Source: Candidatus Thorarchaeota archaeon
Lineage (GTDB): Archaea; Asgardarchaeota; Thorarchaeia; Thorarchaeales; Thorarchaeaceae
Direction of reading: 5' to 3'
Assembly: GCA_021498125.1 (NCBI GenBank)
Contig: JAIZWL010000002.1
Span: 62,001-126,000, forward strand
DNA length: 64,000 nt
The notes under the pieces are model-generated. The model was not told the DNA's origin. It saw only the letters and a list, made by a program, of their open reading frames with translations, and searched no databases. Below are positions 44,773-49,390 of the stretch, piece after piece. Every line of letters begins with the position of its first letter. Within the stretch, counting starts at the first letter, position 1. Position numbers and translations under genes: made by a program.

Positions 44773-46275
44773 CTATCTATCGGCACGCCTAAGAGCTTCG
44801 GTCAGATCAGAACCATGTCCTGAGGGCTCGAATTTTCTTTGCCGGATTTTGACAAACGCGGGGACAGACACAACTTCACCAACAAATAGTGCCTCTCCAA
44901 CCTCTAATGTGGTTATCGCGTCTAACGCAGCTCTATCAATACCTTCGCTACTTCGTCCAATATGATCCAAGTCATACGGATTTGTCGTGCGCAAAATGGC
45001 CTGATTACTACACTGACTAAGAACTGTTGTAGACAAACGAACTGGGCGCTGAGAGATAAGACAGAGGAGAGCATGAAACTTACGTCCCTCACGCGCTATT
45101 GTCTCAATTCGTGGTTTCGGTAGAGCGAGCTCTTGGCGACTCTCAGGACAGAACTGATGCGCTTCTTCCAATACAAGAAGGAATGGGGGGATAGACCCCC
45201 GACGCCGGAGATACAAGAGCTCATTTGCCAAGTAGGACACTACAATCTGTTTCTTCTTCAATGAGATGAAATCACTCAGATCAATTAGAGACAACTTGCC
45301 AGGCCGGACTATATCATGAACGTTCGGTGCTGCCTCTTTCCCAAAGAGACCAGTATCCTCGAGACTGACTAGCCAGCTCACCAATGCATCACGTGTGTTC
45401 TTGTTGATATTTTCGTCATCACGAACAAGATCCATCAGATCGCCAAGGGAGTAACCCTGCTTACGTGCAGCACGGGCCTGCGAGATAATACGTCGAAGGT
45501 CACGCAACTGTACCGAACTCATATCAGAGAGAAACGCGCCAATAGCCTCTGCTGTAAGAGATTGAACAGGGATCTGGAAATGAGCTCCACGAATACGTTC
45601 CACATCCACATCGTGAGGCAGTCCAAGATCCTTGCCAGTAATGTCTTCTAGATAACTGTACTCTCCATGAACATCAATTACAATGACCGCGATTCGGCCC
45701 TGCTCTTTTGTTCGAGAGAGGAGCTCTTCCAACATGACTGATACAAAGTAAGACTTGCCTGCCCCACTCATAGCTAGGATCGCTAGATGTTTGGAAAGGA
45801 GCCTGCTAATATTAGGACGGAATTCAAGCTCATGATGCCCAAGAGTACCAAGACGCAGACCATCTTTCATATCCATCTTCAGAAAATTGGCCAGAGTGTC
45901 TGAATCTACACGTCGCACAACCGCTCCCGGCGACACTGCAAAATACGGACGACGTGTATGACCATCGACCCAGAAGCCAACAACCCGTGCATGAGCAATA
46001 GTATATTGCCAGCGATCCGTTGGGAAAATTGTACGAAGAGGTTCCCCACGTGATTGGTACTCGCGAACTGCTTCGGCATGTTGATAATAGCGATTGACAC
46101 GAATCATATCTTGGACACGAGCAATGACCAAGCCGCCAGATGTGGCAACACCAACGAATTGCCCTCGTCGTGCAATTACTTCAGTCGAATCCCCCTCTAC
46201 AACAAAATCAAACTGCATTACGCTTGGTGTCTTATCATCACAGACAACAGTTCCCAATCGGTCGTACTCAGTCAT
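44773..46275 (-). CDS. herA: DNA translocase HerA
   Basis: Hexameric ATPase that drives DNA end resection with NurA. 500 residues: the N-terminal HAS barrel, Walker A MSGAGKS at 169-175, Walker B VIVIDVHGEY (D201, E205), and the C-terminal RecA-like part with QRPVRLSTTVLSQCSN near 410. A strong GGAGGAGGT lies upstream of the ATG. nurA is 2 kb away on the same strand instead of adjacent, and mre11/rad50 are not in this window. Confidence 0.95.
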   Translation of the reverse strand: MTEYDRLGTVVCDDKTPSVMQFDFVVEGDSTEVIARRGQFVGVATSGGLVIARVQDMIRVNRYYQHAEAVREYQSRGEPLRTIFPTDRWQYTIAHARVVGFWVDGHTRRPYFAVSPGAVVRRVDSDTLANFLKMDMKDGLRLGTLGHHELEFRPNISRLLSKHLAILAMSGAGKSYFVSVMLEELLSRTKEQGRIAVIVIDVHGEYSYLEDITGKDLGLPHDVDVERIRGAHFQIPVQSLTAEAIGAFLSDMSSVQLRDLRRIISQARAARKQGYSLGDLMDLVRDDENINKNTRDALVSWLVSLEDTGLFGKEAAPNVHDIVRPGKLSLIDLSDFISLKKKQIVVSYLANELLYLRRRGSIPPFLLVLEEAHQFCPESRQELALPKPRIETIAREGRKFHALLCLISQRPVRLSTTVLSQCSNQAILRTTNPYDLDHIGRSSEGIDRAALDAITTLEVGEALFVGEVVSVPAFVKIRQRKFEPSGHGSDLTEALRRADR

Positions 46276-46545: not shown

Positions 46546-46626
46546 ACATAATACCACCACCGAGAGAATCTTGTGTGGTCTACGTGTTTCTACGCTGGCA
46601 ATAATCTTCCAAGTGGAGGAATCCGA

Positions 46627-48096
46627 GTGAATATAGTGATCTTGTACCCAAAGATGGGAATTGCAGGAGATATGACTGCAGCCTCACTCTTTGATCTACT
46701 CCGCAAGAGAGAAGAGGGCGCCGAAGCGTTGATTGACGATCTCCTCGCCCCGTTCAAAAGCCACGGGAATGTGAAAATTGAATCACAAGAGAAAGGGTGC
46801 AGGCTAATAACGAGTTTTCAAGAACCGACCATTACCTACTCTGAAGCGCGAGCCCTTCAAGATAAGTTCATTCAATCTATGAAACTAAGCCCCTCCTATG
46901 CAGAGATCAGCAGGAATACACTAGAGATCTTAATTGAGGCCGAATCGTTTGTGCATAGACAGGAATTCATGGATGCCCCTACAAAGTGGGATCCAGACAA
47001 ATTCACACTCCCGACTATGAATACATCTACTGCGTCTCAACCAACTATAGAACATGTACAAGACAAGCCAACTAGAATAACACCTAAAGAAACAGAAGAG
47101 AACAGCAGGGAGATCAGATTAACCTCAATAGGGGTCGCACATACCCCTTATGTAAATCGAGATGCCCCGAACCAACCAATCGTACGGCTTCAGTCAGAGG
47201 ATGAGAAAGAAGATATCCATTCCACACAATTCACTATTGAACTTCAGCCACAGTTCACATCAGCCTTGGAAGATTTGGCCCAATTCAAATACATATACGT
47301 GGTATCGTATTTGGATCAGACAGGGGCCGAGACTACTTCGCAAGTAATTCCACCGTGGGATCAGACCAAGACTGAAAGGGGGCTGTTTGCCACCCGGAGC
47401 CCAAATCGACCCAATCCGATTGGGATTTCCGTGGTTCGTTTGCTACAGGTCAAGCAGAACGTCCTCTATGTAGATAGTCTGGATCTATTCGATGGCACAC
47501 CAATACTTGACATCAAACCATACATTTACTCTATTGATTCAAGAGCTGCAAATAACGGGTGGATCACAGACTCGGACCATCTATTATTACATCGTCTTGG
47601 AATCGTTCATTCACACTCACAGTCTGGGACTGCAACAACAGAAGGACATCTTCACGAGGCCTCAGATATCATAATCGACTCGGTCATACCCTTGAAGATT
47701 CTTGAACTTCTGAAGATTCCTGTTAAAGACACATTCTTAGCAGCACCGCTCTCACTTGGAGGCGGCAAGATAACATTCTCTCATGGAACGTTGAGAGTTC
47801 CAGTTCCTGCGGTGAAATATATCATTGAACGCTATCAAATCCCTTCAAAACAGGGGCCTGTGGAACTTGAACTGGCCACCCCAACGGGAGTAGCATTACT
47901 AGCCGCATTGGATATAGCAAAACGACAGCTTCCGGATTCGGTCATGGAACAGATTTTACAGGTCACAGACGCATCTGTCGTGCTAAGAGGAAAAGGATTT
48001 GGAACAAAAACGATTCCTGATCACGAGAATGCCCTATTCAGCTATCTTGTTCATAACGCCGAGGGATACTTAGTTGAAGAACATATAGCGTCATAG
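46627..48096 (+). CDS. larC: LarC nickel-insertion protein with an internal TrmO domain
   Basis: 489 residues from a GTG at 46627. Residues 1-110 are the LarC N-terminus (IVILYPKMGIAGDMTAASLF). Residues about 163-306 are a complete TrmO/TsaA domain, with TSIGVAHTPY and ATRSPNRPNPIGIS. LarC then resumes with the metal motif H341-L-H343-E, PLSLGGGKITFSHG and TPTGVALLAAL near 418-428, and stops at the end of the LarC1 region. The CTP-using LarC2 domain is missing. LarC inserts nickel into the lactate racemase pincer cofactor; TrmO methylates t6A37 of tRNA. Nothing explains why they are joined. It sits between herA and nurA on the opposite strand. Confidence 0.85.
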   Translation: MNIVILYPKMGIAGDMTAASLFDLLRKREEGAEALIDDLLAPFKSHGNVKIESQEKGCRLITSFQEPTITYSEARALQDKFIQSMKLSPSYAEISRNTLEILIEAESFVHRQEFMDAPTKWDPDKFTLPTMNTSTASQPTIEHVQDKPTRITPKETEENSREIRLTSIGVAHTPYVNRDAPNQPIVRLQSEDEKEDIHSTQFTIELQPQFTSALEDLAQFKYIYVVSYLDQTGAETTSQVIPPWDQTKTERGLFATRSPNRPNPIGISVVRLLQVKQNVLYVDSLDLFDGTPILDIKPYIYSIDSRAANNGWITDSDHLLLHRLGIVHSHSQSGTATTEGHLHEASDIIIDSVIPLKILELLKIPVKDTFLAAPLSLGGGKITFSHGTLRVPVPAVKYIIERYQIPSKQGPVELELATPTGVALLAALDIAKRQLPDSVMEQILQVTDASVVLRGKGFGTKTIPDHENALFSYLVHNAEGYLVEEHIAS

Positions 48097-48205: not shown

Positions 48206-49390
48206 CTACAGACCGCCAAATGGGTTTCGAGATCGTCGTTTTTCAAGAGAGGTGTAAGTCAGTCCCGAGATCGCCATTAGTCGATCAACCACAAATTGGG
48301 TCTCATTATTGCTGATACGTGCCCGCGCATCAGCCTCCAGAATAGGCGTCGGGATTCCATACTCAGGGTGGTGCGAAGAGAGCGGGAGTATTGTTGCAAG
48401 TGCACGATCAACAATCTCAATGCTACGTGGATCGTCTTTTGCAAGAACCTCCACTCGTAGTGGCAAGTCCTCTCGTGCAGTCTTGATGTATGTCACCCAG
48501 ATAGAAGAGGCCCATCCCGCAATATCATCAATTGAGTTTGATGCCTGAGTCAGTTCAGAAGAGTACCTAAAAGCAAAGGTCCGTTCGCCCTCTTCAAGAA
48601 ATGTGTCTAGGAGGTCACAGTCACGAGACATCTTTAACAACCAGCGATAGTCAATCCCTTGCATCATCTCAAAGGTCGATGGATCACGCAAAAGATGTGG
48701 GAGAATATCCCCCAGTGTGTTAACGACACGAGTGGATCGGCTATCTTTAATTATTCCAGCCAGAACTGTCCTCTGACGTGTAGCTTGCTGATAGAGCTGC
48801 GTGTAGAGTGCAATGACCTCTTTGAACTTCTCATGTGCAAGTGATCCAACAGCAGGTCTATCACGAGGATGGTAAAACAGACTGCCATCTACTAGGATAA
48901 GATCCACATGAAATTCTGTGAGAACGGAAATGGTGATTTTCAGCTCTGTAGCTACTCGTTCAAGTGACGCCAGCTGGTCAAGTTCCTGTGTGGAGAGCAC
49001 CAGCGAGATAAATTTGGGGTCCGGAGGAGGGAAAGGGTCTGGATAGAAATCAACTCGCGGGCCTTCTTTTGGCCCAAAATGAAATATAACAGCCACGCCA
49101 CGGGTCAAAAGGAGATCCATGGATCGAAATCGTCGGCGCACAAGTCCGCCATCAATTCCAGCAATTCGAAGACCTGAGAGAGCAACAGGTTCGATCTTTT
49201 TGACAAACTCAGGGCCCGCTGTATCGGCGGCCACAGCAGGGAATCGCCCAAGGTCAATCTTAGATTTAATTTGTTGCATGACCTGACCAAATTTAGATCG
49301 GGTCTGCTCAATTCGCTCGATCTCGTTTACCAGACGTAACAACATTCGATCAAGATCACGATTCACGGGATTTCCCCTTCTTGTATTCAA
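48206..49390 (-). CDS. nurA: NurA nuclease
   Basis: 5'-3' nuclease partner of HerA. 394 residues with the NurA marks RIAGIDGG (D80 as first metal ligand), VDLILVDGSLFY near 162-173, and the C-terminal GIPTPILEADARARIS. It overlaps the upstream pyrG gene by 35 bases if the first ATG is used; an ATG at residue 16 would remove the overlap. Separation from herA by the larC gene is unusual. Confidence 0.9.
   Translation of the reverse strand: MNTRRGNPVNRDLDRMLLRLVNEIERIEQTRSKFGQVMQQIKSKIDLGRFPAVAADTAGPEFVKKIEPVALSGLRIAGIDGGLVRRRFRSMDLLLTRGVAVIFHFGPKEGPRVDFYPDPFPPPDPKFISLVLSTQELDQLASLERVATELKITISVLTEFHVDLILVDGSLFYHPRDRPAVGSLAHEKFKEVIALYTQLYQQATRQRTVLAGIIKDSRSTRVVNTLGDILPHLLRDPSTFEMMQGIDYRWLLKMSRDCDLLDTFLEEGERTFAFRYSSELTQASNSIDDIAGWASSIWVTYIKTAREDLPLRVEVLAKDDPRSIEIVDRALATILPLSSHHPEYGIPTPILEADARARISNNETQFVVDRLMAISGLTYTSLEKRRSRNPFGGL

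Follow-up and report, generated by a model that had tools for sequence, protein, structure and literature searches.

The window, by which we mean the whole 64,000-nucleotide (nt) stretch of Candidatus Thorarchaeota DNA analyzed here, contains an open reading frame (ORF) that begins with GTG at 46627 and runs to a stop codon at 48096, as the first-pass annotation had it. It lies between the genes for the HerA helicase and the NurA nuclease (Table 1), and its product combines two enzyme families. The Pfam profile Ni_insertion (PF01969) matched the protein (4e-28) in two stretches, profile positions 4 to 110 before the TrmO domain and 108 to 234 after it; TrmO_N (PF01980) matched residues 198 to 304 (3.4e-33). 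Scored against NCBIfam, the protein gave 124.3 bits for TrmO (TIGR00104; residues 162 to 307; cut-off, 93.25) and 77.1 bits, again in two stretches, for LarC1 (TIGR00299; cut-off, 90). The last LarC1 stretch before the insert is AESFVHR (residues 105 to 111), and the first one after it is GHLHEASD (residues 340 to 347). Because LarC1 restarts at G340-H341-L342-H343-E344, the TrmO domain is an insertion, not a tail, just before HxH as first described; it sits in the LarC1 loop that links the AE..VH helix to the HxHE motif. Also in agreement with the first description, the CTP-binding LarC2 part (profile positions 235 to 375) had no match anywhere in the chain.

TABLE 1 The fusion gene, its parts and flanks, and related genes in other genomes
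Feature	Position	Strand	Remarks
larC1::trmO nested fusion gene	46627..48096	+	489 aa; orthologue in G003, second family member in G086
Shine-Dalgarno-like GGAGG	46615..46619	+	7 nt 5' of the fusion's GTG; read directly; kept in G003
LarC1 N-terminal part, residues 1-113, with GIAGDM and AE..VH	46627..46965	+	PF01969 profile 4-110; invariant residues; pLDDT mostly >90
Linker, residues 114-160, variable, low-confidence	46966..47106	+	52% identity to G003, 10% to G086; pLDDT mostly <50
TrmO-family AdoMet methyltransferase domain and C-terminal tail, residues 161-330	47107..47616	+	PF01980, TIGR00104, Foldseek
LarC1 C-terminal part, residues 340-474, with HLHE..D...D, GxG, HG, PxPA, ELxTPTG, GxGxG	47644..48048	+	PF01969 profile 108-234; invariant residues
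herA (HerA helicase)	44773..46275	-	PF01935; one flank of the insertion site
nurA (NurA nuclease)	48206..49390	-	PF09376; other flank of the insertion site
Free-standing LarC2 (~190 aa), then larB	G086:C189:5779-7173 (L157); G107:C538:3948-5301 (L156)		
Short LarC1 genes	G084:C13:40151-40921; G085:C134:632-1420		

Among the family genomes examined, nurA and herA are separated by the opposite-strand fusion gene only in the window and in G003, a genome of the same genus. In the other 11 (2 of them congeneric) the two genes are adjacent, about 10 to 36 bp apart, on one strand. The fusion gene was gained at nurA-herA in the ancestor of the window species and G003. The GC content at third codon positions (GC3) of each copy is like that of its own neighboring genes (0.43 versus 0.41 to 0.42, and 0.52 versus 0.50 to 0.52), so the fusion is not very recent.

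The window's genome also encodes a full-length LarC (C1:491942-493222; 318 bits), LarB (C1:688253; 232 bits), LarE (C1:750541; 265 bits), three LarA homologues, and two stand-alone TrmOs. With all of these present, the fusion is an extra copy. The separate canonical LarC and the two stand-alone TrmOs rule out that it is the cell's sole LarC or TrmO; the first-pass annotation had held that such genes would speak against the fusion, and they do so for its uniqueness, not for its reality. The other lar genes that it proposed to look for were thus found, except for a separate larC2: no free LarC2 turned up in this 98%-complete genome, where a very divergent one could escape the searches.

Conservation and predicted structure of the two moieties

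All positions invariant in 41 canonical LarC1 rows are kept in the window, G003, and G086 copies, the last being a fusion from another family that is described below. The motifs GxxGDM, AE..VH, HxHE..D...D, GxG, HG, PxPA, ELxTPTG, and GxGxG are present in the fusions, and the kept residues include E106, H110, H343, E344, D347, D351, G378, G380, H386, P392, P394, E415, T418-P-T-G421, and G459, among others. These universally conserved residues rule out a degenerate LarC1, and the first-pass suggestion of a re-purposed LarC, if taken in that sense, is not supported, given these residues and given G086, which encodes LarC2 on its own next to larB. On the TrmO side, the AdoMet ligands of Escherichia coli TrmO are Q25, R92, D125, and K136 (Kimura et al. 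2014, PMC4132733). Their equivalents in the window protein are Q183, R257, D286, and K297, and all four are found in G086 as well.

The ratios of nonsynonymous to synonymous substitutions (dN/dS) between the window and G003 were 0.11 for the N-terminal LarC1 part, 0.07 for TrmO, and 0.14 for the C-terminal LarC1 part, values that are approximate because dS is near saturation. Rough as they are, they point to purifying selection on every part. From the conserved residues, we predict that the LarC1 moiety works and that the methyltransferase binds AdoMet.

The alignment given to AlphaFold (A6) placed TrmO rows within the insert and left a gap there in LarC1 rows. The model of the fusion protein had a mean pLDDT of 77.8 and a pTM of 0.63. 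Block means for LarC1 were mostly 82 to 97 on both sides of the insert, those for TrmO were lower and mixed, and residues 117 to 160 and 305 to 337 formed low-confidence linkers. Foldseek matched the insert to the AF0241/TrmO structure with bound AdoMet (PDB 2nv4; E value, 8.7e-12; TM score by target, 0.73), and the four AdoMet ligands of AF0241 are all found in the fusion's TrmO domain. Against the PDB copy used (to April 2026) Foldseek returned only TrmO matches and none for LarC1, whereas a sequence search does reach the full-length LarC structure 12bi.

Recurrence, lineage, and origin

Among 59 related genomes, G003 had the entire architecture, with 71% identity over 488 aa. The gene was not found in G001 or G002, which belong to the same genus, and a scan of the contigs of close relatives gave no further fusion. 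When 228 genomes of the phylum were searched with a profile built from the LarC1 parts, a third fusion came to light in G086 (441 aa; ∼39% identity), with TrmO in the same loop. This protein clears both equivalog cut-offs of NCBIfam (LarC1, 103.9 versus 90; TrmO, 112.9 versus 93.25). The search for the same fusion elsewhere, which the first-pass annotation had recommended, thus added two genomes to the window's own, and the fusion is present in 3 of 228 genomes of the phylum. A plasmid search gave TrmO and LarC matches but no fusion over 80% of the query, and the literature library searched gave no paper pairing LarC with TrmO.

An artefact of assembly or gene calling that fused two genes would fit the draft state of the assemblies and the lack of the gene in G001 and G002. 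However, G003 has the identical full-length layout and a conserved upstream region, the G086 copy lies at a different genomic place, and codon-level selection spans the junctions. Misassembly, which the first-pass annotation had named as a possible refutation, and chance are ruled out by the same architecture in these independent genomes, and we give an artefact virtually no weight.

In a tree of LarC1 sequences, those of the fusions fall in a divergent clade (support, 100/100). Some members of this clade are full LarCs with LarC2 in the chain (G209, G214, and G215, with an adjoining larE in G209 and G214); others are short proteins with LarC1 only and no TrmO (G108, G084, and G085). G086 and G107 have a free LarC2 gene directly before larB (96.6 and 91.1, respectively, versus an NCBIfam cut-off of 50). 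Besides its TrmO-containing fusion, G086 gave no LarC1 match; it also encodes LarE and a LarA-like gene. The separate LarC2 genes beside larB show that LarC was split in this lineage, and because of the LarC1-only proteins, the loss or separation of LarC2 is a trait of the lineage rather than a consequence of the insertion. G084 and G085 had no LarB above the cut-off and no LarC2, and assembly gaps are possible, as most of the related genomes are fragmented; their short LarC1 may have another role, or LarB and LarC2 may be missing via such gaps. The loop that receives TrmO in the fusions is long and variable in LarC1s without TrmO, and it is His-rich in G108. In that genome (L037:4321-5947) a gene for a class I SAM methyltransferase follows the short LarC1 by 10 bp on the same strand.

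The host's own TrmOs are not supported as the source of the inserted domain, which groups, away from both of them, with a subfamily of stand-alone Asgard TrmOs (support, 93/94). Most members of this subfamily end in ..GYEHLLLHIKGIPHDY, the tail that re-enters LarC1 in the fusions. The TrmO tree unites the three fusions weakly (84/60), and the LarC1 tree does not unite them (AU test, P = 0.058). The window and G086 share the junction ANNGW..DS.HL..H..GI.H.H...GHLHEA.D, and identity is 62% across the tail junction versus 37 to 40% elsewhere. Because of this common junction, a single insertion, followed by losses or transfer, is likely.

The stand-alone TrmOs closest to the fusions have no lar genes within 1.5 kb; by ORF reading, the neighbors in the subfamily include a class I methyltransferase, a 4Fe-4S ferredoxin, a DsrE-like protein, and an Mrp-like ATPase, the first three adjoining several of the TrmOs at L161, L163, L164, and L166 to L172. 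This set has an N-terminal region of ∼90 aa, predicted to be helical (LLSYWINHNNQH..DIEKW), that has no Pfam match. Beside a subfamily TrmO, another and more divergent TrmO-like protein is encoded at L124:5399-5887 and at L164:2447-2935; it has a CxxC..CxxC N terminus, and its RPN motif is altered (ERLSR).

Possible functions of the fusion

The first-pass annotation was right that no known reason couples LarC and TrmO in one chain. Our preferred reading, to which we assign a probability of about 0.42, is that the protein is a LarC1 half-enzyme that works with LarC2 in trans and holds a TrmO methyltransferase aimed at a target in the nickel-pincer-nucleotide (NPN) pathway, not at t6A37. In this reading the LarC1 half of the NPN nickel insertase is intact, and a complete TrmO-family β-barrel methyltransferase occupies one flexible surface loop, where each domain could fold independently. 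LarC2 would come from the separate gene beside larB in G086 and, in the window's genome, could come only from the full-length LarC. LarC loads P2TMN with nickel: the nucleotide's phosphate receives a cytidylyl group from CTP, and hydrolysis breaks this bond once nickel has been inserted (PMC11796402). The methyltransferase would most likely modify something that LarC1 holds or helps to make: NPN itself, P2TMN as its precursor, or a partner of the LarA type.

We rank an NPN-pathway target ahead of tRNA because the DPRxxY domain, on which m6t6A formation depends in E. coli, is missing from archaeal TrmOs and because m6t6A was undetected in archaeal tRNA; the same study proposes another target for this family, which is widespread, at times in many copies, in archaea (PMC4132733). 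The t6A37 methylation put forward in the first-pass annotation was an assumption from the family name, and these data count against it. The preferred reading is favored by the key residues retained in both moieties, by selection acting on every part, by the recurrence of the fusion, by the LarC1-only proteins of the lineage, and by the free LarC2 of G086 and G107. Against it, the full-length LarC of the window's genome makes an additional LarC1 dispensable for NPN, and that genome has no free LarC2; G084 and G085 retain a short LarC1 with no LarB or LarC2 detected; no lar gene is in an operon with the fusion in the window or in G086; and the stand-alone TrmOs of the subfamily are not beside lar genes. 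The more specific proposal that the fusion is a bifunctional cofactor enzyme that binds and methylates NPN or its precursor, giving a methylated NPN cofactor, we regard as improbable; it would reveal a true substrate class of the archaeal TrmO family.

Some of these observations suit other explanations. The trmO sequence may have landed in a variable LarC1 loop and been tolerated there, both activities remaining and being functionally unlinked. The length and variability of that loop in LarC1s without TrmO, the disordered and fast-evolving linkers, and the rarity of the fusion are as expected if so, but purifying selection has preserved the whole gene in two species although the window's genome has stand-alone copies of both activities, and a distant family carries it with the junction conserved; we consider such an unlinked insertion doubtful. 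We hold it unlikely that the fusion is an RNA (tRNA) methyltransferase in which LarC1, reused for structure or for substrate binding, takes no part in inserting nickel. Its TrmO equivalog score is far above the cut-off, the canonical LarC leaves the fused LarC1 free for other use, and the short LarC1s of G084 and G085, like the lack of a free LarC2 in the window's genome, fit this use. However, retention of all universal LarC1 residues is unexpected for a mere scaffold, the genome carries two other TrmOs, and m6t6A is not known in archaea (PMC4132733). The fused TrmO domains are also acidic (net charge, −8, −4, and −7; stand-alone median, −1; range, −8 to 9), which argues weakly against RNA binding.

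A selected and recurrent TrmO inside a nickel-cofactor enzyme points to a concrete substrate hypothesis for archaeal TrmO proteins. A means of testing it exists in the Duet system by which E. coli can be made to synthesize NPN (PMC11796402). In G086 the fusion is accompanied by a split LarC, with LarC1 and LarC2 as separate genes.

Comparison with known systems

The fusion shares its universally conserved LarC1 residues with the NPN nickel insertase LarC (TIGR00299 plus NF052512; PF01969; Lactiplantibacillus plantarum and Moorella thermoacetica; PDB 12bi to 12bl). It differs from LarC in having no LarC2 in the chain, in the methyltransferase in the AE..VH/HxHE loop, and in belonging to a divergent LarC1 clade. 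Free LarC2 proteins (MK0293, PDB 3c19; those of the Asgard genomes G086 and G107) show that LarC can be split, which gives a LarC1-only chain a possible partner in trans; unlike in genomes with a free LarC2, LarC2 in the window's genome is found only inside the full-length LarC. With TrmO/YaeB, the class VIII AdoMet methyltransferases (TIGR00104, PF01980), the fusion shares the β-barrel domain and the motifs RSPxRPNPIG and DIKPY but not the DPRxxY C-terminal domain, which is absent from its sequence. The Asgard subfamily to which its TrmO belongs has the tail ANNGW...HLLLH..GI.H, and the host's own TrmOs are outside this subfamily. The fusion further differs from TrmO/YaeB in that its TrmO is nested in another enzyme.
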